In this document: piece by piece, positions 27,602 to 55,950 of the stretch
How positions within the stretch are numbered: the first letter of the stretch is position 1
Layout: the number at the start of each line of letters is the position of its first letter
Assembly (NCBI RefSeq): GCF_002270485.1
Contig: NZ_NQOG01000003.1
Location: forward strand, 124,001-188,000
DNA from: Anaerostipes hominis (ex Lee et al. 2021)
Lineage (GTDB): Bacteria > Bacillota > Clostridia > Lachnospirales > Lachnospiraceae
DNA: 64,000 nucleotides
Direction: 5' to 3'
The notes under the pieces: model-generated
What the model was told of the DNA's origin: nothing
Database searches by the model: none
Seen by the model: the letters and a program-made list of their open reading frames with translations, nothing else
Made by a program: the position numbers and the translations under genes

Positions 27602-27618
27602 GGCAATCTCCCCTGAAC

Positions 27619-28437: not shown

Positions 28438-28446
28438 CCTATCCTC

Positions 28447-29739: not shown

Positions 29740-29761
29740 AAAATCCCTTTCTTTTCCCAAT

Positions 29762-29786
29762 GAAAGCCGCTGCTTTGGCGGCTTTC
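29762..29786 (-). other. Hairpin inside the catabolic operon
   Basis: GAAAGCCGC and GCGGCTTTC pair perfectly (9 bp, 7-base loop) in the cyclase-permease gap. No T-tract follows, so it may tune downstream expression or protect mRNA ends instead of ending the transcript. Confidence 0.5.
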
Positions 29787-29801
29787 ACTCATTGCTGTTT
29801 A

Positions 29802-30752: not shown

Positions 30753-30769
30753 AATTTTTTCCTCCGAAA

Positions 30770-31693: not shown

Positions 31694-31710
31694 CTTTACT
31701 GCCTCCAATT

Positions 31711-32499
31711 CTAATTAGCCCAGTATCCGCCTTCTGTGGCCACATTTGCACCGGTCATAAAATCACTGGCAGATGAAGCGAGGAAAATACATGGCCCTAC
31801 GAAATCCTCCGGTTCCCCGAGCCGTCCAATCGGAAGACGTTTCAGGAAATTTTTATAGACTTCACTGTCCGGGTCAAACATCCACTCTGTAAGATCTGAG
31901 CGGAACACTGTCGGATTAATCGTATTGACATTGATTTTATATTTTGCTGTCCACTCACAGGCAAGAGACTGTGCCATCAGGTCAATCCCTCCTTTTGCTG
32001 TACAGTAGCCCGTATAATTTGCCATACCCATCTTGGATCTGGCAGAAGATACTAAAATAACTTTTCCGCCTTTACCCTGTTTTATCATTTCTTTGCCCAC
32101 ATACTTACAGAACAGCCATGTCCCCTGTACATCTGAATCCATGATCTTTTTCCACATGGACAAATCCTGTTCAATGATCGGCTGAGGATGATTGTATCCC
32201 GCAGATGTTACCAGTACATTGATTTCTCCGAATTTTTTTACCGTATCATCTACGACCTTGATGACATCTTCCTCAACCGCCGGATCTCCGCAGGAATATC
32301 CGCATTCTATCCCTTCTGCTTCCAGTTCATCACATAAGGCTCTGCATGTTTCTTCTTTTCTTCCGGTTACCATGACCTTCATTCCGGCATGTCCATATCC
32401 AAAGCAGACCGCTTTTCCCAAAGCCCCTGTGGCACCTGTGATGATTGCAACCTTCCCTTTTACATCAAACATATTGTTTACGAACTCTTTATTTACCAT
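31711..32499 (-). CDS. Short-chain dehydrogenase/reductase (SDR)
   Basis: A classical SDR of 262 aa: nucleotide loop TGATGALGKAVCFGYG, NVLVTSAGYNHPQ, and catalytic Ser with YTGYCTAKGG (Tyr-x3-Lys). It resembles the gluconate 5-dehydrogenase group. The residue after the second strand is VTGRKEET, an Arg-Lys pair that would suit NADP. It probably oxidises or reduces a hydroxyl of the island's substrate. It is 18 bases from both the cupin and the dehydrogenase genes, so all are one transcript. Confidence 0.85.
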   Translation of the reverse strand: MVNKEFVNNMFDVKGKVAIITGATGALGKAVCFGYGHAGMKVMVTGRKEETCRALCDELEAEGIECGYSCGDPAVEEDVIKVVDDTVKKFGEINVLVTSAGYNHPQPIIEQDLSMWKKIMDSDVQGTWLFCKYVGKEMIKQGKGGKVILVSSARSKMGMANYTGYCTAKGGIDLMAQSLACEWTAKYKINVNTINPTVFRSDLTEWMFDPDSEVYKNFLKRLPIGRLGEPEDFVGPCIFLASSASDFMTGANVATEGGYWAN

Positions 32500-36412: not shown

Positions 36413-37189
36413 TTATAGATGGGTTAATTTTCCAACGATCTCTTCCGCAATCTCTTCGACATTTTTATGATCTGTATCTACAATGATATCTGCCGCCGCG
36501 CGATACTTCGGTCTCCGAATCTCCATCAGTTCCGAGATGTACTCCGTATTCTTGCGCCCTCTGAGCAGGGGACGTTCGTCACTGTCTTTGACACGCTCCA
36601 GGATCGTCTCCGGTGAAGCAGTCAGGAGAACAACCCTGCCGTTCTTCTTCATCTCCCGGACATTAATCTCTCTCATCGCCACTCCGCCTCCGCAGGAGAC
36701 GATCTGGTTATTCTTTTTCTGGAGCTCGATCAGAAGGTTGGTCTCGCAGTTTCTGAAATATTCTTCGCCGTACTCCTCAAAGATCTTGTTAATCGACATG
36801 TGTTCTTTATTAACGATTACCTGATCCATCTCTACCTGCGGTGACGCAAGGATCTTGCTTAAATAGTCAGATACTGTACTCTTTCCGACACCCATAAATC
36901 CAATCAGAAAGATATTGTGTGTAAACAAAGTCCTTGCCTGGATTTTCCTGCTGTTTTCCACAATATACGTAAAAATATCAAGGATCTCTTCCTTATATGT
37001 ATTCTCTTTTACATGCTCTTTCAGCATTTTGCGCTGCCGCTTTTCCTGTTCCGGCTGCAGAATCGGAAGTCCGTTCTCCTTTTTGTATTCCATGATCTCT
37101 TTGATAATGTCCATCCGGTCTTCCAGAACCGACACGATCTGTTTGTCGCAGACTTCCAGTCTTTCTCTGATCTCTTCTAACCTTCCCAT
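36413..37189 (-). CDS. Chorismate mutase - shikimate kinase fusion
   Basis: The 258-aa product joins two shikimate-pathway enzymes. Residues 1-90 are an AroQ-type helical chorismate mutase (RLEEIRERLEVCDKQIVSVL, RMDIIKEIMEYKKENGLPI). Residues about 96-258 are shikimate kinase: P-loop GFMGVGKST, INKIFEEYGEEYFRNCE, CGGGVAMR and the lid Arg of DERPLLRG. These catalyse non-consecutive steps (shikimate to shikimate-3-phosphate; chorismate to prephenate). The ATG has GAGGA upstream; an earlier GTG would add four residues. Confidence 0.92.
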   Translation of the reverse strand: MGRLEEIRERLEVCDKQIVSVLEDRMDIIKEIMEYKKENGLPILQPEQEKRQRKMLKEHVKENTYKEEILDIFTYIVENSRKIQARTLFTHNIFLIGFMGVGKSTVSDYLSKILASPQVEMDQVIVNKEHMSINKIFEEYGEEYFRNCETNLLIELQKKNNQIVSCGGGVAMREINVREMKKNGRVVLLTASPETILERVKDSDERPLLRGRKNTEYISELMEIRRPKYRAAADIIVDTDHKNVEEIAEEIVGKLTHL

Positions 37190-37230
37190 TGTGTTCCTCA
37201 CTTTTCTTCAATCGTAGTCTAATGTGGTTC

Positions 37231-37286: not shown

Positions 37287-38171
37287 TTATATCTGGTGCC
37301 GGGATTTAATAAACCCTATAAAGTCTTCAACGATCGGTGAGAGATATTTATCCTTCTGTGTAACGAGATAGATATATCTCTTGATCTCAGGCCTTTTAAT
37401 GGGGATTGCCTCCACCTCCATGGTTTCCAGAATAGGAATTCTCGGCACAATAGAAATCCCGAGCCCGGCGGCCACAAGGCCTGCAACAGAGGAATCCTCC
37501 TCCCCTTCATATGCGATGAAAGGCTGCGCTTTTACCTCAGTAAAAAGTTTATTGATAAACGGCCTCAGACCGCTTTTGCGCGAAAACATAATGTAAGGAT
37601 AATTCGTTGTCTTTGCCAGGTCAACGGCCTCTTCCCCTGCCAGAGGATGTCCTTTGGGCGTGATCAGCACAAGCTCTTCTTCCACAACAGGAGTGAAATT
37701 CAACCGGTCTTCACCCTCTTTATAGGATGAAAATACGAGATCATAGGTACCCTTTTTCAATTCCCCGATCATCTGCTCTGTGGTTCCCTGTCCAAAAGAA
37801 AAACGGATATTCTTACCCTCATTCTCTTTCATGTAATCACTCATATTTTGTGGGATAAAATGACTTCCCAGAGTATAAATATATCCGATGTCGATATATC
37901 CGCCGGCCATTCCGGATACTTCACCCACCACACGCCTTCCTTCATCCAGCATGTCCAGTGACTGTATCACATATCGGCAAAAAAGCTCACCCTCTTTGGT
38001 AAGCCTGGCATTTCTTCCAACTTTTTCAAACAATTTGACATTTAACTCCTTTTCAAGAGCATTGATGGCATGGCTCAGACTGGGCTGGGTGATATTTAAA
38101 ATGTGGGCAGCCCTGGTGTAGTGCTGCTCTTTCGCCAGTGTTCTCAAATAATATAGATGATTCAGATTCAT
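37287..38171 (-). CDS. LysR-family regulator 1
   Basis: The 294-aa protein has the LysR helix-turn-helix HYTRAAHILNITQPSLSHAI and a two-lobed effector domain beginning near residue 90 (GGYIDIGYIYTLGSHFIPQN, then GHPLAGEEAVDLA). It is divergent from the enoate-reductase-like gene at 38.4 kb, the classical LysR arrangement, and is similar in layout and sequence to the LysR gene at 52.7 kb. The divergent space between them is occupied by the 61-bp tandem repeat. Confidence 0.92.
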   Translation of the reverse strand: MNLNHLYYLRTLAKEQHYTRAAHILNITQPSLSHAINALEKELNVKLFEKVGRNARLTKEGELFCRYVIQSLDMLDEGRRVVGEVSGMAGGYIDIGYIYTLGSHFIPQNMSDYMKENEGKNIRFSFGQGTTEQMIGELKKGTYDLVFSSYKEGEDRLNFTPVVEEELVLITPKGHPLAGEEAVDLAKTTNYPYIMFSRKSGLRPFINKLFTEVKAQPFIAYEGEEDSSVAGLVAAGLGISIVPRIPILETMEVEAIPIKRPEIKRYIYLVTQKDKYLSPIVEDFIGFIKSRHQI

Positions 38172-38367: not shown

Positions 38368-38406
38368 TATTGCAGTGAAATAGAAAGAAAAATGGAGGAA
38401 CTAACT

Positions 38407-40398
38407 ATGGCTGCAAAGAATTTCCGCAATCTATTTGAACCATTTACAGTAAAATCAATGACATTAAAAAACCGTATTGTCATGACGCCGATTGGAACAA
38501 ATTTTGCTGAGCGAACAGGAGAAGTCAGTGATAAACTGATTGCATATTATAAACAACATGCAAAAGGAGGCATAGGCCTCATCACAGTGGAAGGTGCCAG
38601 TGTCGCATCCCCTCAGGGATCTTTAAGCACGAACCAGTTGAGAATTGACCATGACAACTACATCCACGGGCTGTACAAGCTCTGTGAAGCGATCCATGAA
38701 TACGGATCCAACGCTTCCATTCTGCTCAATCACGGCGGTGCCGACTCGGACGGTTCTGTGACAAATATCCAGCCGGTATCTGCTTCTGATATTCCATCAA
38801 AAGCTGGAGGAGACATCCCGAGACCTCTTACGATAGAAGAGATCCACGGTATTGTCCAGAAGTTTGCAGACGCTGCTAAGCGCGCAGTCACAGCCGGCTT
38901 TGATGCTGTTGAGATTCAGGCAGGACACGGCTATCTGCTGAACCAGTTCTTATCCCCGCTGACCAATGACAGGACAGATGAGTTTGGCGGTTCCAAAGAA
39001 AATCGTGCACGCTTTACAACGCTCGTCTTAAAAGCAGTCCGCGAAGTTGTAGGCGAGAATATCCCGATCTTTTTGAGAATCAGTGCAGATGAGCTCACTG
39101 AAGGCGGAAACTCACTGAATGACACATTGGAGATCGTTGAATATTTTGAAGATTATGTAGACGTATTTGCAGTATCCGCAGGTCTTACCTGTACAATCCA
39201 GTATCAGCATGACGCAGATTACCTTCCGGACGGATGGAAATCTTATATGTCCAAGGCTGTTAAGAAGAAAACAGGAAAGCCATGTACCGCTGAAGGAAAT
39301 ATCCGTGAACCTGAGATCGCCAATGAGATTTTAAAGAGCGGCCAGTCTGACCTGATCGGTATCGGCCGAGGACTGATCGCAGATCCTGAGTGGGTCAACA
39401 AAGTACAGTTCGGAAACACCGATGATATCAACAAATGTATCTCCTGCAACAATGGATGTACTGCAACGCTCAGCAACAAACCGATGCGCTGTACTGTCAA
39501 TCCATTTGTAGTAAGCGGAGAAAATTATAAAAAAGAGCATATCAAGAAGCCTTGCAACGTGGTTGTTATCGGAGGCGGTACCGCAGGCCTTGAAGCCGCA
39601 TGTACTGCAGCAGAGGTGGGATGTTCCACTGTTCTGATCGAAAAGACCAACCAGCTTGGCGGACTGGCCAGACGTGTGGGCAACATGCCGAATAAAAAAC
39701 GTCTTGGTTACTTCCCTGCTTATCAGGAAAAAAGAGCCATGGCCCTTAAAAACCTGTTTATCTGCAAGAATGTAGAAGCTACCGCGGAATTTGTAGACGG
39801 ATTCAAACCGGACATCGTTGTCAACGCAACCGGCTCCAACCCACTGCTTCCGAATATTCCAGGCCTTAAGGAAAACCTTGAGAAAGGAAATGTCTCTACA
39901 ATCTTTGACCTGGTTGACAAGGTAGACACATTTGAAAAAACAGATCTTTCCGGCAAAAAAGTCGTTGTCATAGGCGGAGGAAATGTCGGTTTGGATGTGG
40001 TTGAATTCTTTGCTCCTAGAAAAGCAGACGTGACCATTGTAGAGAAAAAGCCTCATTTTGGAGAAGACCTGGATCTGATCACAAGAACCGGTGCCAATGA
40101 GCTTTTGGAGAAATATAAAGTCACTCAGTATCCGAATGCCAACCTTTTGAAAGTGAAAGAGAATTCTTTCATTGTCCGTCATGACTATAAGGATCTGGAA
40201 TTAGATTTTGACTACGGATTTATCTGTCTCGGAATGCAGTCTGCCACACCGGCGCTGCAGGCTCTGTACGATCATTTTGTGGATGAGGGCATTGAAGTTC
40301 TCAACATTGGTGACAGTGCAAAGACAAGGCGTATGATCGAAGGTGTCAAAGAGGGACGTGATATCCTGATCGCACTGGAGAGACATCACTTCTTATAA
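38407..40398 (+). CDS. 2-enoate-reductase-like FMN/4Fe-4S/FAD oxidoreductase 1
   Basis: The 663-aa protein has the layout of clostridial 2-enoate reductase and 2,4-dienoyl-CoA reductase. An FMN barrel (1-340) is followed by a 4Fe-4S cluster (Cys344, 347, 351, 362) and an FAD/NAD half (NVVVIGGGTAGLEAA, VVVIGGGNVGLDV). Such enzymes reduce C=C bonds next to a carboxyl or carbonyl group with NADH. The usual substrate-side His of the barrel is Gln171 (VEIQAGHGYLL); the paralogue at 53.7 kb keeps His170. GGAGG stands eight bases before the ATG. Being paired with a LysR gene suggests induction by its substrate, which is unknown. Confidence 0.9.
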   Translation: MAAKNFRNLFEPFTVKSMTLKNRIVMTPIGTNFAERTGEVSDKLIAYYKQHAKGGIGLITVEGASVASPQGSLSTNQLRIDHDNYIHGLYKLCEAIHEYGSNASILLNHGGADSDGSVTNIQPVSASDIPSKAGGDIPRPLTIEEIHGIVQKFADAAKRAVTAGFDAVEIQAGHGYLLNQFLSPLTNDRTDEFGGSKENRARFTTLVLKAVREVVGENIPIFLRISADELTEGGNSLNDTLEIVEYFEDYVDVFAVSAGLTCTIQYQHDADYLPDGWKSYMSKAVKKKTGKPCTAEGNIREPEIANEILKSGQSDLIGIGRGLIADPEWVNKVQFGNTDDINKCISCNNGCTATLSNKPMRCTVNPFVVSGENYKKEHIKKPCNVVVIGGGTAGLEAACTAAEVGCSTVLIEKTNQLGGLARRVGNMPNKKRLGYFPAYQEKRAMALKNLFICKNVEATAEFVDGFKPDIVVNATGSNPLLPNIPGLKENLEKGNVSTIFDLVDKVDTFEKTDLSGKKVVVIGGGNVGLDVVEFFAPRKADVTIVEKKPHFGEDLDLITRTGANELLEKYKVTQYPNANLLKVKENSFIVRHDYKDLELDFDYGFICLGMQSATPALQALYDHFVDEGIEVLNIGDSAKTRRMIEGVKEGRDILIALERHHFL

Positions 40399-46037: not shown

Positions 46038-46463
46038 TTAAAGCGCTTCTCTTTCAGGTGGCATTCCGCGGTCCCCACGGTCTCCCAGTCCGCTGAAATG
46101 CCACAGCGTCAAATTTTTTGGCTCCTTTGTCTCCAGATATCTGTCTTTCAGAGCTTCGATCAATAGTAACGGATCTACAATGCCTCCTCCGGCTCCGCAA
46201 ACTGCCAGAGTATCTCCGTCATCTATTAATTCTACAGCTACCAGAAGGTAATATTCCATAACGAACATTACAGCGAGAAAGATCTGGAATGTGGCTGTAC
46301 AGGTGCGACCGATAACAATCAGTGCAATTCCTTTCACTGCAAATTTAGATGCCTTGGAAACTCCCACAAAACCTTTTATTTTTTCTCCGCTTTCTGTCTT
46401 TACTCTCGGCTGCGGTGCAAAGTTCAACTGCGGGTGAAAGTTCATCCAAATATTGTGTATCAC
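46038..46463 (-). pseudogene. Chimeric remnant: MFS fragment joined to CoA-transferase N-terminus
   Basis: Residues about 12-52 match an internal part (about 182-230) of the MFS gene at 50.4 kb: LNFAPQPRVKT corresponds to VLFAPLPKMET, and IALIVIGRTCTATFQIF to IALIIIGFTGTATFQLW. From about residue 78 the reading changes to the start of a family I CoA transferase: LIDDGDTLAVCGAGGG, LKDRYLETKEPKNLTLWHFS and GDRGDRGMPPE. It then stops. Neither part is complete. This looks like the scar of a deletion that fused two genes, and it should not give a working product. Confidence 0.75.
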
Positions 46464-46490
46464 TCAGAACCTTTCCTGTAAAATAAAGAA

Positions 46491-46525
46491 CAGGCTCTTT
46501 TATTGCTTTCCAATAAAAGAGCCTG
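46491..46525 (-). terminator. Terminator of the TRAP operon
   Basis: Fifteen-base perfect arms CAGGCTCTTTTATTG / CAATAAAAGAGCCTG, then TTCTTTATTTT on the minus strand. Confidence 0.88.
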
Positions 46526-46531
46526 CTGATC

Positions 46532-47539
46532 TTACTTCTGATTCAAATATGCATTAAAAATATCTTTTGATACATTTTCCTTAATGCTTTTATATATGTC
46601 GGAAGCCGCTTTCCTTACGTCCTCCTGAGTTTTCTTATCCAGCGCAACAATCTTTGTACCACTATCTTTTATGACCTTCATCCGGTCCTCGATCCGTTCA
46701 TCCGAAGCTTTCCTTGCATATTCCTTTGCCGTCTCTGCCGCCTCCTCAATAATCTTCTGCTGATCTTTCGGAAGGTCTTTATAAAATTCATCACTTACAA
46801 TCAGAGAAATATAATGGGGCAGATGATTTGTTTCTACCACGTAATCCTGCTGTTCATAAAGTTTGCTTGACACAATGACCTCATATGGGTTTTCCTGTGC
46901 GTCTATGGTCTTCTGCTGCAGGCCGATGTATACCTCACTGAACGTCATCGGCGTCGGATTGGCTTTCAGTGCCTTCCAGAAATCCATATGGTAGCTGTTT
47001 TCCATGGTACGGATTTTCTGTCCTTTAAAGTCATCAATCGACTTCACCTCTTTGTTGGTAGACATGACACGAAATCCCTGGTCCGCATAACCAAGCAGCT
47101 TAAATCCACCTTTTTCATAAACCTTTTCCATCTTCTTATAAAATACAGGATTGTCTACGGCAGCTCTTGCCTCTTCAATCGTAGTGAAGGCACTTGGCAA
47201 ATCAAAGACAGCGGTATCCGGCATAAAAGTAACCTGAGGTGCCGTATTTTGCACAACAAAAGGAATATCACCGTCAGAACAGCTCTCCAGCAGTTCCCTG
47301 TCTCCCCCCAGCGTACTGTTTGGATATACCTCAATCTTCATTTTCCCTTTACTCAATCTGCTTACTTCATCTGCAAACTTCTGAGAATATAGCTGCGTCA
47401 CGGTATCTTCCGGGCTGGAAGTTCCAAGAGGCCACGCATACCGCTGCACACCGTCATCACTTTTCTTCTTGCATCCGCTAAGAGCCAAGACAGAGACGAC
47501 ACATAAAGCCGCAATACCAAATCTTATCAATCTTTTCAT
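46532..47539 (-). CDS. dctP: TRAP transporter substrate-binding protein (DctP family)
   Basis: The 335-aa binding protein has a lipoprotein signal ending LALSGC and the DctP fold: GQKIRTMENSYHMDFWKALK, then PTPMTFSEVYIGLQQKTIDAQENP, where the family Arg and Asn contact the ligand carboxylate. TRAP systems take up organic acids using the sodium or proton gradient. The gene is last in the Q-M-P operon, with GGAGGGGG six bases before the ATG. Operator sharing with the aroE operon suggests a quinate- or shikimate-like acid as ligand. Confidence 0.92.
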   Translation of the reverse strand: MKRLIRFGIAALCVVSVLALSGCKKKSDDGVQRYAWPLGTSSPEDTVTQLYSQKFADEVSRLSKGKMKIEVYPNSTLGGDRELLESCSDGDIPFVVQNTAPQVTFMPDTAVFDLPSAFTTIEEARAAVDNPVFYKKMEKVYEKGGFKLLGYADQGFRVMSTNKEVKSIDDFKGQKIRTMENSYHMDFWKALKANPTPMTFSEVYIGLQQKTIDAQENPYEVIVSSKLYEQQDYVVETNHLPHYISLIVSDEFYKDLPKDQQKIIEEAAETAKEYARKASDERIEDRMKVIKDSGTKIVALDKKTQEDVRKAASDIYKSIKENVSKDIFNAYLNQK

Positions 47540-47552
47540 CTGTATCCCCCTC

Positions 47553-48842
47553 CTATAACAGCGCCAGGCTGATCTGCGGTATAAATGTAATAAGTAACAA
47601 AGCCACAAGGAAACAAAGGATCAGCGGCATTGCCTTCTTTGCGATATCCACTACCGGGATCTGAGTCAGGGATGAAGCCACAAACAAATTGACTCCGATG
47701 GGCGGAGTTACAAAACCAATCGCCAGGTTGACTACCATCATCACACCAAAATGAATTGGATTCATTCCAACGCCCACTGCAATCGGCATCAGAATCGGTG
47801 TCAGAATCAAAATAGCCGGTGTCGTATCCATAACCATACCCACAAGCAGTAAGAAGACGTTGATTACCAGCAGAATGACAATTCCATTGTGGAATGTTCC
47901 AAGAATCCACTCGCTGACTGTCTGAGGAACCTGCATCAGCGTCAGGACTCTTGAAAATGCCACGGATGCTGCCAGTATAAATAAAATAGGCGCATAGGTA
48001 TGGATTCCCTCGATCATAACTCCCCATAAGTCTTTTACATGGATACTCTTGTAGACAAATAAGCTTACGAATACAGAATAAAAAACAGAAATCACCGCTG
48101 CTTCTGTAGGGGAAGCCACACCAGTATAAATACAGCCAAGGATAATGACCGGACTGAGCAGTGCAAAAAAACTGTCTTTCAGCACAGTAAGCAGGCCTTT
48201 GTCACGAAGTGCCTGTACTTCTTTCCGGATCTTTTCTTTATCCTCACCATGTTTCCTGCAGTAAAAAACAGCATATACCATCAGCAGCAGACCGATAGAA
48301 ATCCCGGGAAGAATCCCGGCGATAAACAGATCACTGACAGACTGTCCGGATGCCATTCCGTACATAATAAAAGGGATACTTGGAGGGATAATGACACCCA
48401 ATCCTCCTGAAACCGCAACGATTGCTGTCGCAAATTTTTTATCATAACCGAGCTTAATTAAAATCGGGATCGTCATACTGCCCACTGCTGCCACCGTCGC
48501 CGGTGCTGAACCTGAAATTGCTCCATAAAAAAGACACGTAACGATAACTGCACATGGCATTCCCGCTGTAAATTTTCCAATAAAATATACAAATACATCA
48601 AAAATCTTTTTTGAAATTCCGCCCTTTGCCATCACCATGCCTGATAAAACAAACATCGGCACCGCCAGCAGCGGAAAACTGTCGATTCCTCCCAGCATGG
48701 AACGGATGACAAACTGGCCGCTTGCCGTAAAAGAAGAGTCAAAGATTCCCGGAAGTACCGACACAATACCGAGTCCAATGGAAATCGGTATCGCAATGAT
48801 CAAACACAAAAAGAAAATAATAAATACTGATAACGCTGACAT
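47553..48842 (-). CDS. dctM: TRAP transporter large permease (DctM)
   Basis: A 429-aa integral membrane protein with about twelve helices. PMFVLSGMVMAKGGISKKIF and SGSAPATVAAVGSMTIPILIK are the classic DctM loops, and GVVIPPS appears as GVIIPPSIPFIMYGMASGQSV. NLAIGFVTPPIGVNLFVAS is the second pseudo-repeat of the same loop. It carries the substrate with DctQ after delivery by DctP. Confidence 0.94.
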   Translation of the reverse strand: MSALSVFIIFFLCLIIAIPISIGLGIVSVLPGIFDSSFTASGQFVIRSMLGGIDSFPLLAVPMFVLSGMVMAKGGISKKIFDVFVYFIGKFTAGMPCAVIVTCLFYGAISGSAPATVAAVGSMTIPILIKLGYDKKFATAIVAVSGGLGVIIPPSIPFIMYGMASGQSVSDLFIAGILPGISIGLLLMVYAVFYCRKHGEDKEKIRKEVQALRDKGLLTVLKDSFFALLSPVIILGCIYTGVASPTEAAVISVFYSVFVSLFVYKSIHVKDLWGVMIEGIHTYAPILFILAASVAFSRVLTLMQVPQTVSEWILGTFHNGIVILLVINVFLLLVGMVMDTTPAILILTPILMPIAVGVGMNPIHFGVMMVVNLAIGFVTPPIGVNLFVASSLTQIPVVDIAKKAMPLILCFLVALLLITFIPQISLALL

Positions 48843-48844
48843 AC

Positions 48845-49330
48845 CTACACCTCCTGATCCTTTCCAACTGCGATTTTAAACTCAATCAGCCATCTCTGTA
48901 AAATACGAATTGTCACCAGCAGAAAACTTACCAGCGGTGCTGCCTGTATGTAGTACATTGGTATATGGCATGCAGGGCTAACTTGTCCGCTTTCAAATGC
49001 ACTTTTTAAATACAGGATAGAGTATGGGATCAGATACAGGAACAATGCAAGTTCAATGGTATGGTTCACCACTTTAAAGATGGCCCTTCCCCTTTTAGGA
49101 AACATTGCCACAAACTGCTCAATTTTAATGGAGATACACTTTTTTGTGCAGTAGCTGACACTGATAAAGCCTGACCAGATAAACAGGTATCTTGTGATCT
49201 CCTCCGACCAGGAAAGGGATGCTCCCAGAACATAACGCGCCAAAACCTGTATGCCCATGATCAGGACCATCCCCATCAGGAAAACTCCCATTAAAAACTC
49301 TTCTAAATTTTCATCTAACCACTTTAGCAT
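48845..49330 (-). CDS. dctQ: TRAP transporter small permease (DctQ)
   Basis: A 161-aa protein with four membrane helices: EEFLMGVFLMGMVLIMGIQV, then RYVLGASLSWSEEITRYLFI (the DctQ signature), and two more. It stabilises DctM. It is the first gene of the operon, two bases ahead of dctM. The ATG of MLKWLDEN has AGAGG seven bases upstream; 32 more codons upstream are not supported. Confidence 0.9.
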   Translation of the reverse strand: MLKWLDENLEEFLMGVFLMGMVLIMGIQVLARYVLGASLSWSEEITRYLFIWSGFISVSYCTKKCISIKIEQFVAMFPKRGRAIFKVVNHTIELALFLYLIPYSILYLKSAFESGQVSPACHIPMYYIQAAPLVSFLLVTIRILQRWLIEFKIAVGKDQEV

Positions 49331-49422
49331 ATTAATACCTCTCTTTTGTAAGCGGAGATCTGCTGTCCCCAGCATGATTCTATCTATTTGAACATGATTC
49401 CCCGCTGTAATTATTACAGCAT

Positions 49423-49446
49423 CCAAAAGTTAATTTTTTAACAACC
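49423..49446. promoter_or_regulatory. Shared 24-bp operator, TRAP copy
   Basis: The core GTTAATTTTTTAAC is a palindrome (arms GTTAA/TTAAC). The full 24-bp element CCAAAA...AACAACC is identical, base for base, to 52556-52579. It starts 10 bases after the TRAP -10 box and so covers the transcription start, the place of a repressor. Confidence 0.8.
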
Positions 49447-49456
49447 AATCCACTAT

Positions 49457-49485
49457 ATTATACATGGTAATAATTCATTCCACAA
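49457..49485 (-). promoter_or_regulatory. Promoter of the TRAP operon
   Basis: TTGTGG-17-TATAAT on the minus strand. The stretch 49486-49590 holds nothing else that I can name. Confidence 0.6.
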
Positions 49486-49590
49486 ATAGATTTTTCAAAT
49501 AGAATTAATAATTTTTATCTATCAATATTGCAAATTTTCTCAGAGTTCAATGATCCTGCCGCCTCAAATCATCTATGGTCCGCAGAAGTA

Positions 49591-49626
49591 AAAAGCAGAT
49601 AACCTGGGGTCAGATTATCTGCTTTT
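49591..49626 (-). terminator. Terminator of aroE-MFS-aroD
   Basis: AAAAGCAGATAA / TTATCTGCTTTT arms of 12 bp with a T-tract (TTTTTAC) on the minus strand. Confidence 0.8.
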
Positions 49627-49654
49627 ATCTTACTGTCATTTTGATTTTATAATT

Positions 49655-50422
49655 CTACAGTCCCTGATTTGCGTGGAGGAACTGAAGCATATCATTTAAT
49701 TCATTGACTGCTGCCTGACCCGGAGCAGACGCTTTTTTCGCTGCGCCGAATGTAAGCGCCGAACCGAACACTTCTCCGCAGAGACGGCTGATCAGTCCCG
49801 TTCCTGCCATAGACATAGTGATAATCGGACGGTCTGCATGATCTGTATACATTTCCTCCGTCGCTGCAAGGAGTGTAAGTACATCTCTCCTGCAGGTCGG
49901 CATGACAGCGATTTTAGGAATATCAGCTCCTAATTCCTGCATTTTCACGAGTCTGCTGACAATTTCTTCTTTTGAAGGAGTTTTGTCAAAATCATGGTTG
50001 GAAGCCACAACCTTTACGCCGCATTCATGCGCAGCCGCCACGATATCTTTTACGATATCATCTCCCGTAAATACCTCCACATCTACAAGATCTACATATC
50101 CGCTTCTCGCTGCATTTTTATTCAGTTCTGCATACGGACCTGGCTCAATGGCTTTTTCTCCGCCCTCTTTGGATGTACGGAAGGTAAAGAGAATCGGTGT
50201 ATCTGAAAGAGCTTCTCTCAAATCTTTTAACACATCTTCTACTTTGGCAAAATCGAAGACTCCCTCAAACCAGTCTACGCGCCATTCCACAACATCTACC
50301 GGGATCTCCCGGAAAGACTTTGCCTCGGCGATGATCTCTTCCTTTGTCACGCCCACAATCGGCACACAAATCTTAGGAACACCTGTTCCAATCTCTACAT
50401 TTTTAACTTTTACTGGATTCAT
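49655..50422 (-). CDS. aroD: Type I 3-dehydroquinate dehydratase
   Basis: The 255-aa Schiff-base enzyme interconverts 3-dehydroquinate and 3-dehydroshikimate. Catalytic residues are His in VASNHDFDKTP, the Schiff-base Lys in DIPKIAVMP, and Glu in VDVEVF. FRTSKEGGE and ITMSMAGTGLISRL are also family motifs. It is the last gene of a transcript with a transporter and a YdiB-like dehydrogenase. That context fits breakdown of quinate or shikimate better than aromatic amino acid synthesis. Confidence 0.95.
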   Translation of the reverse strand: MNPVKVKNVEIGTGVPKICVPIVGVTKEEIIAEAKSFREIPVDVVEWRVDWFEGVFDFAKVEDVLKDLREALSDTPILFTFRTSKEGGEKAIEPGPYAELNKNAARSGYVDLVDVEVFTGDDIVKDIVAAAHECGVKVVASNHDFDKTPSKEEIVSRLVKMQELGADIPKIAVMPTCRRDVLTLLAATEEMYTDHADRPIITMSMAGTGLISRLCGEVFGSALTFGAAKKASAPGQAAVNELNDMLQFLHANQGL

Positions 50423-50435
50423 TTTCTACTCCTTA

Positions 50436-51608
50436 TTAAGCTTTCTCTTCCATTGCCTTGTATCTCACATTGACAAACAGAGCCAATAATACTCCGACAA
50501 CAGTGATTCCAATGTTCATTAATAAAATGTCTGCTTTATCCATTGTACCAGCCAGAGAGAGGATTGTATAGTTAGATAAGCTGGACGCAATCATAACTAT
50601 ACTCGTGATAGTTCCTTTGATTTTCGGAAACAGATCGTTCGCTGTCGCTGTCACAAGCTGAAGTACAACGGCTCCTGCGGAATATCCGACAACTGCTGAT
50701 CCGATGTAGCAGATAGAAGGAGTTCTCAGCAGATAAACAAGCGCAATCATAATCGCTGCGATCAGAGGATATACGAATAAGAATCTTACCCCTTTTATCT
50801 TATTAACTAAAACAGTTGTAACAACGATAGCTACGAGAGATCCCGTACTGTAGTATGTCTGCATCACAGAAGGATCACCAATCTTTGCATATTCCTTCGC
50901 GAAATCCTGAGCACAGTTCAGCCAGAGCTGGAATGTTGCTGTTCCTGTAAATCCGATGATAATCAGCGCAATACTCTCCAATGAGAAGTTTGCATGTTTG
51001 ATATCCTGGATCAGAGAAGATTTTGCCCCGCCTGCTGTCTCCATCTTCGGAAGAGGTGCGAATAAAACAAGCACGCCGATGATGGCAATGGCAACACCGC
51101 ATACGTATAATAATACATTTAAGGAAAGGTTTGCTCCAACGATGGCACCGATCATAAACGGCATTAACAGCTGTGAACAGGAGATTGAAAACTTGGTGAG
51201 CATCGTTGCCATACTGGATCTTGGAGCCAGAATTTCAACACAAGCCGGGATCACACCGGTATCCAGGAATGAGTTTGCGATTCCTCCTAATACAGCTGCT
51301 ATGTATGCAACCGTCATATTTGGTGACATAGCAAGGCCTAAGAAAAAGATCGCATAGGAGCCTGCGCCGATGATGGATGCCACTTTTCTTCCCAGCTTAT
51401 CAGAAAGAGGTCCTGCAAATGGAAGGGCGATCAAACGTCCAAGCCCCAGCGCTGCCGCTACCATTGTTACCAGCCCGATGTCAGAAGCTCCCCACTGCTT
51501 TACCAAAGTTTCTTTTACTGCTACCTGGCCTAATACAGAACATCCGATACCATGGATGAAATAATTTAAGTATAAAATAAACGCACTGGGATAATATTTT
51601 TTGTTCAT
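50436..51608 (-). CDS. MFS permease in the shikimate/quinate operon
   Basis: A 390-aa major facilitator with about twelve helices. GRLIALPFAGPLSDKLGRKV is motif A between helices 2 and 3; SFLDTGVIPACVEILAPRSS is in the helix 4-5 region. It sits between aroD and the aroE-like gene with short gaps. It probably moves quinate, shikimate or a product. A broken copy of its internal part survives in the remnant at 46.0-46.5 kb. Confidence 0.85.
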   Translation of the reverse strand: MNKKYYPSAFILYLNYFIHGIGCSVLGQVAVKETLVKQWGASDIGLVTMVAAALGLGRLIALPFAGPLSDKLGRKVASIIGAGSYAIFFLGLAMSPNMTVAYIAAVLGGIANSFLDTGVIPACVEILAPRSSMATMLTKFSISCSQLLMPFMIGAIVGANLSLNVLLYVCGVAIAIIGVLVLFAPLPKMETAGGAKSSLIQDIKHANFSLESIALIIIGFTGTATFQLWLNCAQDFAKEYAKIGDPSVMQTYYSTGSLVAIVVTTVLVNKIKGVRFLFVYPLIAAIMIALVYLLRTPSICYIGSAVVGYSAGAVVLQLVTATANDLFPKIKGTITSIVMIASSLSNYTILSLAGTMDKADILLMNIGITVVGVLLALFVNVRYKAMEEKA

Positions 51609-51639
51609 AATTGATTCCTCTCAAATTTCCTCTCTAGAT

Positions 51640-52515
51640 TTAGTCGTATTTAATATCCAACACTTCTTTCATGTGGTCGATCGGCATATGTTTTCCGGTC
51701 CACAGGTGGAATGCCGCGTCTCCCTGGAACAGCATCATACCAAGACCGTTCATTGTCTTGCAGCCGGCTTCTTTTGCCATCTTTAAAAGTGCAGTCTCTC
51801 TCGGTGCATATATAGTGTCGGTGACGATCAGGTCCGGACGCAGGAATGACGCGTCAGGTATCACTGACTGGCCTTCAAGAGGCTTCATTCCAACACCGGT
51901 TGCCTGTGCAAACAGATAGCTGTCTGCAATCTCTTCTTTTAATTTATCTTTATCATCAAGATCATAAAGATTTACGATACAGTCTGTGTTTGCACGGATC
52001 TTCTCAACGGTTTTCTCTGCATTCTCCCAGAATTTATCTTTGATATTGAAGATTGACATTTCTTTGACACCGTCCAGTGCCGCCTGAATTTCGATCGCCG
52101 TTGCAGCTCCGCCTGCTCCTGTGATTGTCATTTTTTTGCCGATCACATCGATGTCATTGTCTTTCAGTGACTGCATGTAGCCGATTCCGTCGGTAATATG
52201 TCCTGTCAAAACTCCGTCTTCATTGACGATCGTGTTGACTGCTCCTGCCATCTCTGCTGCCGGTGAAAGCTTATCTAAGTACTTGCCTACAACTGTCTTG
52301 TTCGGCATAGACACGTTGGAACCCTTCAGTTTCAGGGCACGCAGTCCTTTTACCGCATCCTCTAATGTGTCATTGTCAACTTCAAACGCCAAGTATGCAT
52401 AATCAAGTCCTAATGTGGCAAATGCTTCATTGTGCATTGCCGGTGAACTGGAATGTCTGATCGGATATGCCATCAGCCCGATCAATTCTGTATGTCCTGT
52501 GATTCTCTCTGCCAT
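51640..52515 (-). CDS. Quinate/shikimate dehydrogenase (YdiB-like AroE)
   Basis: The 291-aa product has the shikimate-site motif GLMAYPIRHSSSPAMHNEA, the catalytic Lys in SNVSMPNKTVVG, the nucleotide loop TGAGGAATAIEIQ and the late GLGMMLFQGDAAFHLWTG. The second nucleotide strand ends FNIKDKF, with an Asp like YdiB (FNRRDEF) where AroE has an Arg-rich NADP motif. It therefore probably uses NAD and may accept quinate as well as shikimate. It is first in the operon with the MFS and aroD genes. The operator overlaps its transcription start. Confidence 0.88.
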   Translation of the reverse strand: MAERITGHTELIGLMAYPIRHSSSPAMHNEAFATLGLDYAYLAFEVDNDTLEDAVKGLRALKLKGSNVSMPNKTVVGKYLDKLSPAAEMAGAVNTIVNEDGVLTGHITDGIGYMQSLKDNDIDVIGKKMTITGAGGAATAIEIQAALDGVKEMSIFNIKDKFWENAEKTVEKIRANTDCIVNLYDLDDKDKLKEEIADSYLFAQATGVGMKPLEGQSVIPDASFLRPDLIVTDTIYAPRETALLKMAKEAGCKTMNGLGMMLFQGDAAFHLWTGKHMPIDHMKEVLDIKYD

Positions 52516-52555
52516 GTGTCATTCTCCTTTTCTACTTACCCTGTTGTTTCTTCAC

Positions 52556-52579
52556 CCAAAAGTTAATTTTTTAACAACC
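52556..52579. promoter_or_regulatory. Shared 24-bp operator, aroE copy
   Basis: Identical to 49423-49446 over all 24 bases, palindromic core GTTAATTTTTTAAC. It begins 11 bases after the -10 box of the aroE promoter, and lies between the divergent aroE and LysR genes. Confidence 0.8.
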
Positions 52580-52590
52580 TTACAAAAACT

Positions 52591-52620
52591 ATTATACACG
52601 GATCTTATTGATACTTCTAA
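52591..52620 (-). promoter_or_regulatory. Promoter of aroE-MFS-aroD
   Basis: TATAAT at 52596-52591 on the minus strand, with a weak TTAGAA -35 box 18 bases upstream. Confidence 0.5.
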
Positions 52621-52720
52621 TACATCTTTTAATACTTTTTAATAGATTTTTGCTATCATTTATGTTATGCTTCCTTATATAAATAGCCATTGCACTTTCC
52701 CAAGAAACGAGGTACTCTCT

Positions 52721-53611
52721 ATGAATTTAAACCAGCTTTCTTATTTTCAAAAAATCGCAACCCTGCAGCATTATCATCAGGCAGCCAGAGAATTGAATGT
52801 ATCCCAGCCCAGTCTAAGCCGCTCCATCGCCAATTTAGAAGAGGAACTGGGGCTTCCTCTCTTCCGGAAAAATGGAAGAAATATCGAGCTGACTAAGTAC
52901 GGAAAGATATTTTTAGAGCATGTCAATAAAATACTCGAAGAAGTGAAGATTGCTGAGGATAAAATGAAGGCTCTGGCCAACTCCAAGGGAGGCCACATCG
53001 ACCTGGCCTACGTGTTTCCACTTGCCAAATCGTATATTCCCCACCTCGTGCGCAGTTTCTTAAATTCGGAAGGTTCCAGCAATATCACCTTTTCCATGAC
53101 GCAGGAAATCACTAACAAAATGCTCCGTGATCTGAAGTCTGAAAAATATGACGTCATCTTCGGCTCTTACGTATCCAATGAGCCTGAGATCGAATTCGTC
53201 CCGGTCATCAATCAGGAGATGGTTGTCATCACGCCGCTGGAGCACCCCTTGAAGCATAAAAAAGAAGTTCTGCTGGAAGATCTTCTGTCCTACCCAGTCA
53301 TAGGATATGACCGCACTTCCGGCCTGGGCCAGTTTACAACTTCCATCTACCGGCAAAACCGGATGGAACCTGAGATCGCATTTGAAACCTCCGATGAAAA
53401 TGCCATTGCCGCTCTCGTAGCCGAGAACTTCGGCATCGGCTTCGTGGCCCATGTGGAATCTCTGAGGGAATATGACGTGGAGATCCTTCACTTAAGCAAC
53501 GTGAAACCTTATCACACTGTCTACATGGCGTACCTGAAGAACAACATTATGATCCCTGCTGTAGAGAAATTTATTGTCTTCGTAAAAAAAACGATAGACA
53601 AAAACTATTGA
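52721..53611 (+). CDS. LysR-family regulator 2
   Basis: The 296-aa protein has HYHQAARELNVSQPSLSRSI as its helix-turn-helix and an effector domain with GGHIDLAYVFPLAKSYIPHL and EHPLKHKKEVLLEDLL. It is clearly related to LysR 1 at 37.3 kb. It is divergent from aroE and upstream of the second enoate-reductase-like gene, so it may sense the same acid for both. The ATG with GAGGT is used; 18 codons upstream are unlikely. Confidence 0.92.
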   Translation: MNLNQLSYFQKIATLQHYHQAARELNVSQPSLSRSIANLEEELGLPLFRKNGRNIELTKYGKIFLEHVNKILEEVKIAEDKMKALANSKGGHIDLAYVFPLAKSYIPHLVRSFLNSEGSSNITFSMTQEITNKMLRDLKSEKYDVIFGSYVSNEPEIEFVPVINQEMVVITPLEHPLKHKKEVLLEDLLSYPVIGYDRTSGLGQFTTSIYRQNRMEPEIAFETSDENAIAALVAENFGIGFVAHVESLREYDVEILHLSNVKPYHTVYMAYLKNNIMIPAVEKFIVFVKKTIDKNY

Positions 53612-53630
53612 TTTCAAAAAAAATATCAAT

Positions 53631-53659
53631 TTGTTAAATAATTATCTTTGCTTTATAAT
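53631..53659 (+). promoter_or_regulatory. Promoter of enoate-reductase-like gene 2
   Basis: TTGTTA-17-TATAAT between the LysR stop and the gene. The -35 region TTGTTAAATAATTAT resembles half of the shared operator. Confidence 0.65.
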
Positions 53660-53737
53660 GAACTTATCATTACAGATCACCCAAATGCAATGATAACAAC
53701 CCTAATTAGAAATCGATAATCTTTTGGAGGGTACACA

Positions 53738-55735
53738 ATGAAGTGCAATTATAAAAATATTTTCAGTCCGTTGACAATCAAAAACATGACGATGAAAAAC
53801 CGCATCATGATGACACCGATGGGAACCAACTATGGAGAACAGACCGGAGAGATGAGTTTTCTCCATATCAATTATTACGAACAGAGGGCAAAAGGCGGTG
53901 TCGGTCTTATTATGGTGGAAAATGCCAGCGTAGATTCCCCTCTCGGTTCAAACGGTACAACTCAGATCAGGATCGACCACGACAATTACATGCCGCGTTT
54001 CTTTAAACTCTGTGAGACTGTCCATTCCCACGGTGCATGTATCGGACTTCAGTTAAATCATGCAGGTGCGTCCGCTCAGTCTAAACGTACTAATATACAG
54101 CCGGTATCCGCATCAAATATTCCATCCAAAGAAGGCGGAGAAATTCCCCGTCCGCTTACAAAAGATGAGATTTATGCAATTGTTAAAAAATATGGAGAGG
54201 CAGCTGCGCGCGCACAGGCTTCAGGATTTGACTGCATTGAGATCCATGCGGGACACTCCTACCTGATCAGTCAGTTCTTATCTCCTACGACTAACGTCAG
54301 AACTGATGAATTTGGAGGTTCTCCGGAAAACAGAGCCAGATTTGCAAGGCTGGTATTAGAAGAAGTCAGAAAACAGGTTGGACCGATGTTCCCAATCTTC
54401 GTCCGTCTAAGTGCCGACGAGTTTATGGAACATGGAAATACCCTGGATGATACTTTGAACTACCTCCAGTATTTCCAGGAAGAAGTCGATGTTTTCGACG
54501 TGTCTGCCGGATTAAACGGTTCCATCCAGTACCAGATCGACGCCAACTACTTAGAAGACGGCTGGAGATCTTATATGGCAAAGGCTGTCAGGGAAAAATA
54601 CGGAAAACCATGTGTGACTATGGGTAATATTCGTGATCCACGTGTTGCTGACGATATTCTTGCCCGCGGAGACGCTGATATCATCGGTATGGGACGCGGT
54701 CTCATCGCAGATCCATGCTGGGTGAAAAAGGTTGCCACAGGGCACGAAGATGAATTAAGGAAATGCATTTCCTGCAACATCGGATGCGCAGGAAACCGAA
54801 TCGGTGTCAACCGCCCGATCCGCTGTACGATTAATCCTACGGTAAACGACGGTGCTGATTATAAAAAGCACAAGATCAATAAACCATGCAACGTTGTCGT
54901 TATCGGAGGCGGTACTGCCGGCCTGGAAGCTGCATGTACGGCTGCGGAAGTTGGCTGCACGACATTCTTATTAGAAAAGGAAGATCATCTGGGAGGACTT
55001 TCCGTGGAAATCTCCAAGATTCCTGACAAGAAACGTCTCGCTGATTTCCCTCACTATCTTCAAGTAAGGGCATCCAGGTTAAACAACTTGTTTATCTTTA
55101 AAGGACAGGAAGCCACACTGCCGATGATCAAGGCTCTGCACCCGAATATCATCGTCAATGCCACAGGATCCAATCCTCTGCTTCCGCCGATCAAAGGTCT
55201 TCACGACCATATCGACAAGGAAGGCTCCAAGGTTGCCTCTATTTCCGGCATGATCAATCATCTGGCTGACTATCCGGAAGACTGCACAGGCAAGAAGGTC
55301 GCTGTCATCGGAGGCGGTGCCGTGGGACTGGATGTTGTAGAATATTTTGCACCAAAAGGCGCAGAGGTGAGCATCGTAGAGATGATGCCTGCCATCGGTA
55401 AAGATTTAGACCCTGTTTCTAAATCCGGTGTTAATGCACTGATGAAAAAGTATAAGGTCAACCAGATGCCGAACACTGCTCTCTGCGAAGTCAAGGCCGA
55501 TTCCTTCCTCGTAAAAGCAGACGGTGAAGAAAAAGACCTGCCATTTGACTATGGATTCGTCTGTCTCGGAATGCGTGCCAACGCTCCGATCCTAGAGGAG
55601 ATCCGTGAGGTATATGCGGATACCAACGTAGAAATTATCAATATCGGTGACAGCGTCCGTGCAAGACGTATCATCGACGGTGTTCAGGAAGGACATAACA
55701 TTTTAAGAGTACTTTCCGACATGGAATACTTATAA
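53738..55735 (+). CDS. 2-enoate-reductase-like FMN/4Fe-4S/FAD oxidoreductase 2
   Basis: The 665-aa paralogue of the 38.4-kb gene has the same three parts. The barrel has QLNHAGA and EIHAGHSYLISQFLSP, keeping His170 and His173. The 4Fe-4S ligands are Cys343, 346, 350 and 363. The NAD/FAD half has NVVVIGGGTAGLEAA and VAVIGGGAVGLDVVEYFAPK. Size matches clostridial 2-enoate reductases. Shikimate is itself a cyclic 2-enoate, so reduction of its ring double bond is a plausible role in this regulon. That is inference; other unsaturated acids are possible. Confidence 0.9.
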   Translation: MKCNYKNIFSPLTIKNMTMKNRIMMTPMGTNYGEQTGEMSFLHINYYEQRAKGGVGLIMVENASVDSPLGSNGTTQIRIDHDNYMPRFFKLCETVHSHGACIGLQLNHAGASAQSKRTNIQPVSASNIPSKEGGEIPRPLTKDEIYAIVKKYGEAAARAQASGFDCIEIHAGHSYLISQFLSPTTNVRTDEFGGSPENRARFARLVLEEVRKQVGPMFPIFVRLSADEFMEHGNTLDDTLNYLQYFQEEVDVFDVSAGLNGSIQYQIDANYLEDGWRSYMAKAVREKYGKPCVTMGNIRDPRVADDILARGDADIIGMGRGLIADPCWVKKVATGHEDELRKCISCNIGCAGNRIGVNRPIRCTINPTVNDGADYKKHKINKPCNVVVIGGGTAGLEAACTAAEVGCTTFLLEKEDHLGGLSVEISKIPDKKRLADFPHYLQVRASRLNNLFIFKGQEATLPMIKALHPNIIVNATGSNPLLPPIKGLHDHIDKEGSKVASISGMINHLADYPEDCTGKKVAVIGGGAVGLDVVEYFAPKGAEVSIVEMMPAIGKDLDPVSKSGVNALMKKYKVNQMPNTALCEVKADSFLVKADGEEKDLPFDYGFVCLGMRANAPILEEIREVYADTNVEIINIGDSVRARRIIDGVQEGHNILRVLSDMEYL

Positions 55736-55770: not shown

Positions 55771-55950
55771 TTAATAGAAAGAAAGGGAACCATCATCATT
55801 GGTTCCCTTTCTTATTGTCTCTTCAATATCTTCCTTACGCACAAGTTCAAATAAATCTTTTGGCTGGAACCTGGAAGCAAAGGTTTCCCACATAAGATCC
55901 ATCGCCTCCTGAAGCCTTGAACGATGCAGTTTTGCAATTTCTATCCTCAT
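55771..55950 (-). CDS. Small ORF, 59 aa, possibly a truncated gene
   Basis: It begins with ATG after AGGAAATAA and encodes MRIEIAKLHRSRLQEAMDLM followed by WETFASRFQPKDLFELVRKE and a short tail. The opening loosely resembles a GNAT acetyltransferase N-terminus, cut after 59 residues. Its last codons overlap the terminator hairpin of the enoate-reductase gene, so it is either a remnant or a small gene ending inside the hairpin. I do not recognise a family with confidence. The remaining 55951-56097 contains a CCGGC-CAAA-GCCGG hairpin before its RBS. Confidence 0.35.
   Translation of the reverse strand: MRIEIAKLHRSRLQEAMDLMWETFASRFQPKDLFELVRKEDIEETIRKGTNDDGSLSFY
55780..55812 (+). terminator. 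Hairpin after enoate-reductase-like gene 2
   Basis: Thirteen-base arms AGAAAGGGAACCA / TGGTTCCCTTTCT. The following sequence (TATTGTCTCTTC) is only moderately T-rich. Confidence 0.6.

Follow-up and report, generated by a model that had tools for sequence, protein, structure and literature searches.

Gene organization at the locus

The DNA analyzed was a 64-kb stretch (64,000 nucleotides; hereafter the window) from a genome assembly of Anaerostipes hominis (ex Lee et al. 2021) comprising 3.3 Mb in 85 contigs, within which a candidate regulon for uptake and reduction of quinate and shikimate had been proposed at positions 46532–55735. Two divergent gene runs are found there (Table 1). The minus-strand run encodes, in order, a YdiB-like shikimate (quinate) dehydrogenase, a major facilitator superfamily (MFS) permease, a type I 3-dehydroquinate dehydratase (DHQD), and the DctQ, DctM, and DctP components of a tripartite ATP-independent periplasmic (TRAP) transporter, and the opposite plus-strand run encodes a LysR regulator (LysRa) and an Old Yellow Enzyme (OYE), here termed OYEa. 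Profile scans located the dehydrogenase, DHQD, MFS, and TRAP genes where the original prediction had placed them and in the families that it had named. It had also described two 2-enoate reductase–like enzymes with LysR genes as framing the region; both pairs exist, and the second, LysRb with OYEb (37287–38171 and 38392–40398), lies outside the stated interval.

The first three minus-strand genes are closely spaced (31 nucleotides between the YdiB-like gene and the MFS gene, 13 between the MFS gene and DHQD), whereas 228 nucleotides separate DHQD from DctQ. Long hairpins end both runs, but no terminator-like site was found in this longer gap, so co-transcription of the TRAP genes with those upstream is probable; the gap nonetheless leaves room for a separate TRAP promoter. 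Over the region, terminator-like sites (13, against 8.7 in shuffled sequences, standard deviation 3.5) were little above chance and promoter-like sites (24, against 20.5, standard deviation 4.5) were not above it, so no promoter could be assigned and a single transcript is a presumption.

A Pfam scan of the window proteins indicated a complete TRAP set, with DctP, DctQ, and DctM all present. The nearest solved structure to DctP is 7bbr, a putative DctP, followed by the sialic acid–binding SiaP; judging from the gene neighborhood, the transporter would take up quinate or shikimate. The MFS protein is probably a quinate/shikimate carrier or a product exporter.

Table 1. Features of the locus and of the second OYE–LysR pair, with window coordinates
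Feature	Position	Strand	Supporting match or remark
DctP, TRAP solute-binding protein	46532–47608	-	PF03480, TIGR00787; real start probably downstream of TTG
DctM, TRAP large permease	47553–48842	-	TIGR00786, 407 bits
DctQ, TRAP small permease	48845–49426	-	PF04290
Type I 3-dehydroquinate dehydratase (DHQD)	49655–50422	-	TIGR01093, 251 bits (cut-off 139); motif patterns present
MFS permease	50436–51608	-	PF07690
YdiB-like shikimate (quinate) dehydrogenase	51640–52515	-	NF001313, 532 bits (cut-off 431)
LysRa, LysR regulator divergent from YdiB	52667–53611	+	PF00126/PF03466
OYEa, FMN/4Fe-4S Old Yellow Enzyme, 665 amino acids	53738–55735	+	PF00724 + PF07992
Terminator-like hairpin after DctP	46489–46527	-	17-pair stem, T-rich tail
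Terminator-like hairpin after OYEa	55779–55813	+	14-pair stem
OYEb, OYEa paralogue	38392–40398	+	57% identical to OYEa
LysRb, divergent from OYEb	37287–38171	-	best PDB match 5ted Lmo0488
Chorismate mutase–shikimate kinase fusion, beside LysRb/OYEb	36413–37201	-	PF01817, PF01202

The dehydrogenase and the dehydratase together make up the enzyme pair that characterizes qui-type loci. The YdiB-like enzyme narrowly misses the quinate/shikimate dehydrogenase model NF009390 (345.3 versus 349 bits) and carries the substrate and Rossmann motif patterns; its best solved relative is the Listeria shikimate dehydrogenase 3tnl/3toz (E 2e-129). A QuiR-like LysR adjoins the operon: among solved structures, both LysRs match the effector domain of Lmo0488 (5ted) first, LysRa at E 1.7e-37 (next match 1.5e-21) and LysRb, the closer of the two, at E 5e-48 (next 3e-26). 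Lmo0488 is QuiR, the Listeria shikimate sensor, whose structure was reportedly solved with shikimate.

OYEa belongs to a discrete OYE subfamily

OYEa consists of a flavin mononucleotide (FMN) barrel, four cluster cysteines, and a flavin adenine dinucleotide (FAD)/NAD(P) domain, a fold that is clear from its sequence, and it has the sequence features of a 4Fe-4S flavin ene-reductase of the FadH/2-enoate reductase type, including the active-site His and Tyr. Cys 343/346/350/363, His-173, and Tyr-175 are kept in all 86 rows of the subfamily alignment and His-170 in 83. The His-x-x-His-x-Tyr (HxxHxY) pattern aligns with that of YqjM, and the residue aligned with YqjM Ile-69 is Asn in 83 of the 86 rows. 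The bit scores of OYEa remain below the NCBIfam cut-offs of its best-matching OYE models (472 against 825 for BaiCD, 350 against 750 for the long bilirubin reductase, and 409 against 793 for mycofactocin OYE 2).

When 150 genomes of the family Lachnospiraceae were searched, with up to eight candidates scored per genome, matches were either at least 51% identical to OYEa (51–100%) or at most 36% identical, with nothing between; OYEa therefore belongs to a discrete OYE subfamily. Among the matches listed, it is 90% identical to the OYE of Candidatus Anaerostipes avistercoris and 88% identical to that of Anaerostipes sp. MSJ-23. At E 1e-200, with up to three candidates scored per genome, the subfamily was detected in 31 of 397 family genomes. 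The idea that OYEb is a simple recent copy of OYEa was not supported, as the two are only 57% identical and OYEb forms its own supported branch with two other Anaerostipes OYEs. Damaged copies were seen in one genome (G005), where one OYE is in several pieces with stops (L063, G005:C40) and another, on a different contig (G005:C37), is split in two.

The putative reductase is found beside quinate-type genes across phyla

Conservation of the neighborhood, which the original prediction had put forward for checking, was found to be extensive. Among the 150 genomes, 11 of 16 subfamily OYEs had an aroE- or aroD-type gene within 10 kb, whereas among the 107 OYEs outside the subfamily only 6 did (p 2.7e-8 by Fisher's test; p values are indicative only, because the genomes are related). 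OYEb, at 9.3 kb from the window DHQD, is counted among the 11, and the 16 include two of the damaged G005 pieces; without these three, the count is 10 of 13 (p 1.7e-8). Not entered in the comparison were three other fragments of the two damaged G005 copies and the DHQD rows scoring below G062, 21 in number, none of which on visual inspection came within 10 kb of any listed OYE.

Named genomes gave 137 OYE loci, of which 80 were listed; the 56 with 5-kb flanks on both sides were counted, many of them from close relatives, and the 24 with short flanks were set aside. Within 8 kb of the OYE, YdiB or DHQD was present at 46 of the 56 loci and both at 32, together with LysR at 42, MFS at 34, and TRAP genes at 18. 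Loci with YdiB or DHQD span the Bacillota, Pseudomonadota, and Fusobacteriota and were found in, among other taxa, Listeria, Enterococcus, Paenibacillus, Niallia, Clostridium ragsdalei, Clostridium carboxidivorans, Klebsiella michiganensis, Phytobacter, Mangrovibacter, and Cetobacterium. Since the greater part of the set is found again in numerous genera, the arrangement is not due to chance, and the conserved neighborhood supports a tie between the putative reductase and a quinate/shikimate locus. Of the regulon originally predicted, the uptake function and the linkage to the OYE are supported by this conservation and by the Lmo0488-like LysRs; the reduction itself and the compound reduced are predictions.

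The 6 neighboring OYEs from outside the subfamily include two, L050 and L051 (the two examined), of a second OYE type that is 30–34% identical to OYEa. In the 11 alignment loci of this type (L050, L051, L069, L080, L082, L085, L094, L098, L104, L138, and L141), a YdiB-labeled gene lies within 5 kb in all 11 and an MFS-labeled gene in 10; 10 of the 11 also have a TIM-barrel protein of one family beside the OYE, 67–100% identical to that of L051. These genes make up a second quinate-type module, situated close to OYEa in the genome concerned.

Proposed pathway and alternatives

Very probably the locus handles quinate and/or shikimate. On balance, although by no great measure of confidence, it is best read as an operon under LysR control through which these compounds are used anaerobically, with OYEa reducing 3-dehydroshikimate with NADH as an electron sink. 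Quinate and shikimate would enter through the TRAP and MFS transporters. From what is known of its family, the YdiB-like enzyme should convert quinate to 3-dehydroquinate and shikimate to 3-dehydroshikimate, and DHQD, on the same grounds, should convert 3-dehydroquinate to 3-dehydroshikimate. OYEa, and perhaps OYEb, would then pass electrons from NADH via FAD, the 4Fe-4S cluster, and FMN to the C1=C2 bond of 3-dehydroshikimate, a predicted step based on the retained YqjM-aligned motif, to give 3-oxo-4,5-dihydroxycyclohexane-1-carboxylate. A dehydrogenase may reduce the ketone to 3,4,5-trihydroxycyclohexanecarboxylate (dihydroshikimate), which would be exported. For each molecule of quinate or shikimate, the fermenting cell would thereby dispose of one net NADH. 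3-Dehydroshikimate was chosen as the likely substrate because quinate and shikimate both converge on it within the operon, and it is preferred over shikimate because OYEs usually act on enones such as this one; in shikimate, the carboxylate alone activates the alkene.

Several observations weigh against this interpretation. Five of the 16 subfamily OYEs have no aroE- or aroD-type gene within 10 kb (two of these being pieces of broken or split copies), and 10 of the 56 named loci lack both YdiB and DHQD within 8 kb (L094, L097, L100, L112, L115, L130, L131, L132, L133, and L134, two of which carry OYEb relatives). The neighborhood rule also has exceptions, as shown by a subfamily OYE on Paenibacillus polymyxa plasmid pPpO211 (L151), for which the annotation lists neither aroE nor aroD within 7 kb. 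The operon DHQD is also the sole type I match in the genome at E values up to 1e-25, and no type II dehydroquinase matched there in a search whose positive control matched in 7 of 14 genomes. As the only dehydroquinase detected, the operon DHQD probably feeds chorismate synthesis too, and the operon would then not be purely catabolic. Finally, no relative of the L051 TIM-barrel protein was found in the window's genome, by a search that had no positive control, and the end product proposed for the related Listeria operon is reportedly protocatechuate rather than a reduced compound.

The probable dual role of DHQD invites an explanation by salvage, in which imported quinate or shikimate would pass to chorismate through DHQD, AroE, and shikimate kinase and the OYE would be a side activity. 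Besides the single dehydroquinase, the shikimate kinase fusion beside OYEb and at 11 of the 80 listed loci fits this explanation. Salvage is nevertheless unlikely: DAHP (3-deoxy-D-arabino-heptulosonate 7-phosphate) synthase (two matches), DHQ (3-dehydroquinate) synthase, and a second AroE (above the NF009200 cut-off) are encoded elsewhere in the genome, so that the organism can make its own shikimate, salvage is unneeded, and the YdiB-like enzyme may be spare; moreover, the conserved OYE would stay unexplained. Direct reduction of shikimate to dihydroshikimate in one step, in the manner of cinnamate-type 2-enoate reductases and as the original prediction had it, was judged similarly improbable. 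It fits the conserved neighborhood equally, and some 4Fe-4S OYEs reportedly reduce simple 2-enoates, but the shikimate alkene is poorly matched to it for the reason given above, and the operon holds both enzymes that make the enone.

An oxidative route, with 3-dehydroshikimate converted to protocatechuate or another aromatic and the OYE acting as a dehydrogenase or accessory protein, is quite improbable, although the same gene order in L. monocytogenes, for which protocatechuate is said to have been proposed, speaks for it. So does BaiCD, a distant OYE relative, which catalyzes one reductive and also one oxidative step (PMC11574389). No operon protein matched a dehydroshikimate dehydratase in general Pfam and NCBIfam scans, in which other dehydratase families were not searched for; the TIM-barrel protein of the second OYE type, a protein with no assigned function, was likewise not found in the genome by the search without a positive control. 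The remaining proposal, that the OYE reduces hydroxycinnamates freed together with quinate from chlorogenic acid, is very improbable indeed. Chlorogenate yields both compounds and OYE-type enoate reductases are known; however, Pfam and NCBIfam scans identified none of the cluster's genes as an esterase, linkage of the OYE to AroE and AroD genes is seen in Listeria, Enterococcus, and Klebsiella too, and OYEa scores below the cut-offs of its best-matching NCBIfam OYE models.

Relatives of the chorismate mutase–shikimate kinase fusion at least 50% identical to it, often with a LysR gene between fusion and OYE, account for the 11 listed loci (L066, L070, L072, L076, L080, L081, L116, L117, L121, L130, and L131). 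The fusion is probably biosynthetic and is tied to OYEb by neighborhood only.

An IolN-linked extension in related genera

In Hespellia (L053/L091 and L165) and Faecalicatena faecalis (L052/L088), OYEa relatives were found in a one-strand run without YdiB, in the order GntR, 3-hydroxy-3-methylglutaryl-CoA (HMG-CoA) lyase–like protein, IolN, two Zn-dehydrogenases, xylose isomerase–like TIM barrel, OYEa, DHQD, MFS, DctQ, DctM, and DctP. A third genus (L164) has a single run of lyase, IolN, the two dehydrogenases, TIM barrel, and DHQD, whereas its OYEa is on the opposite strand; an AroE-type gene, MFS, DctQ, and DctM adjoin, the stretch ending within DctM. Of three motif patterns tried in addition to the Rossmann pattern, two are missing from the L164 AroE-type gene.

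The Thermotoga-type inositol pathway uses IolM and IolN. As in that pathway, IolN in L052 and L053 stands beside two Zn-dehydrogenases, but here it sits with an OYE, DHQD, and an HMG-CoA lyase–like gene. With 534 bits in L052 and 533 in L053, the IolN proteins are well above the curated cut-off of 245, but the four Zn-dehydrogenases of these loci miss the IolM model (180–192 versus 450 bits needed) and the L053 TIM barrel misses the IolO model (46 versus 300 bits). IolN was detected in 11 of the 397 genomes. In four of these, from three genera, it is 88–100% identical to the L053 query and OYEa lies 3.1–4.4 kb away; in the other seven, it is 46–50% identical and no OYEa was found at E 1e-200. 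Open reading frames were labeled in five of the seven (in L170, the labeled frames did not include IolN), and the only one scanned with Pfam (L168) has GFO/IDH/MocA and transketolase genes. An interpretation of the OYEa-linked IolN genes as ordinary inositol genes was rejected because of this divergence and because the other seven gave no OYEa. The IolN-linked OYEs fall into two supported groups in the tree, which one or two origins of the join fit alike.

The extension set suggests a non-aromatic ring-cleavage pathway. IolN hydrolyzes 3-dehydro-scyllo-inosose, in which a hydroxyl lies between two ketones. The same pattern would arise here if, after reduction of 3-dehydroshikimate by the OYE, a dehydrogenase oxidized the 5-hydroxyl, since the resulting 1,3-diketone would carry a hydroxyl on the carbon that separates its two ketones; IolN would hydrolyze the diketone, and the opened acid would be isomerized and then cleaved by the HMG-CoA lyase–like enzyme. 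It is a tentative proposal, more doubtful than not, that the OYE opens anaerobic ring cleavage of quinate and shikimate without oxygen or an aromatic intermediate, with the window's organism having only the reductive upper part and excreting the product. A search of the window's genome, with a positive control that matched in 5 of 14 genomes, did not detect IolN, so the OYE product would be the end product there.

Comparison with known systems

The closest counterpart is the Listeria qui operon, which consists of lmo0488 (quiR), lmo0489 (OYE), lmo0490 (shikimate dehydrogenase), and lmo0491 (aroD). In L. monocytogenes, the LysR gene is divergent from an OYE followed by shikimate dehydrogenase and aroD; the OYE is 59–60% identical to OYEa, the LysR effector domain is homologous to those of LysRa and LysRb, and in other Listeria species, YdiB is 67% and DHQD 61–62% identical to the window's proteins. 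The annotated 12 kb in L. monocytogenes contains no transporter gene, whereas the window has YdiB-MFS-DHQD-TRAP divergent from LysR-OYE. Regulation of the Listeria operon by shikimate has reportedly been published. Since L. monocytogenes has the OYE–dehydrogenase–DHQD–LysR set, this kind of operon is already known, and the earlier suggestion that the set had not been described holds only in that the TRAP system is unusual. The new parts are TRAP import and the reductive reading of the OYE, along with the possible ring-cleavage extension in relatives.

Klebsiella likewise has an OYE, shikimate dehydrogenase, MFS, aroD, and LysR, but no TRAP gene in the 16 kb examined; in both its loci and those of Listeria, the OYE is annotated merely as an oxidoreductase. 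The OYE DNA of L123 had no blastn match in the E. coli genome set. The Salmonella ydi island has been described as possibly serving quinate/shikimate use (PMC6159554). OYEa has the domain make-up of the 4Fe-4S flavin ene-reductases of gut bacteria, among them BaiCD/BaiH and bilirubin reductase (PMC11574389), but it scores far under the curated cut-offs for BaiCD, bilirubin reductase, and mycofactocin OYE.

Lactobacilli reportedly reduce quinate to dihydroshikimate, according to physiological work of the 1950s to 1970s, the same overall chemistry as that proposed for the window; no gene is known to have been assigned to this reduction. Quinic acid is freed from coffee and fruit chlorogenic acids. 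A 2024 study cites two routes proposed for it in the gut, one oxidative and leading to protocatechuic acid, the other reductive and leading to hexahydrobenzoic acid, and describes knowledge of the enzymes for gut quinic acid breakdown as mostly lacking (PMC11602726). Open-access literature on quinate and shikimate yielded no OYE assigned to their reduction, which is weak evidence of novelty because subscription journals were mostly absent. By sequence, the locus is real and conserved, and it is a candidate source of a reaction that metabolite studies documented long ago; the OYE kept beside quinate-type genes in many gut Clostridia offers candidate genes, a regulator, and a transporter for gut quinate reduction, and the extension in relatives could be a new ring-cleavage pathway.

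Other features of the window

In the window, no Rfam family reached its gathering score, and tRNA genes were likewise absent. A 141-amino acid open reading frame past the operon (46038–46463, minus strand) had no Pfam or NCBIfam match at E 0.001 and is probably not a gene. At 26277–32499 on the minus strand, a phloroglucinol-type cluster encodes a short-chain dehydrogenase/reductase (SDR), a 3-hydroxyacyl-CoA dehydrogenase, a cyclase-family hydrolase, an MFS protein, a BKACE protein, and two CoA-transferase genes, kinds of genes described for anaerobic phloroglucinol degradation (PMC10470551). Its cleavage enzyme scores 315 of the 382 bits at the NCBIfam cut-off of its best model. A gallate/pyrogallol connection between this cluster and the quinate operon might be considered, as a lead only.

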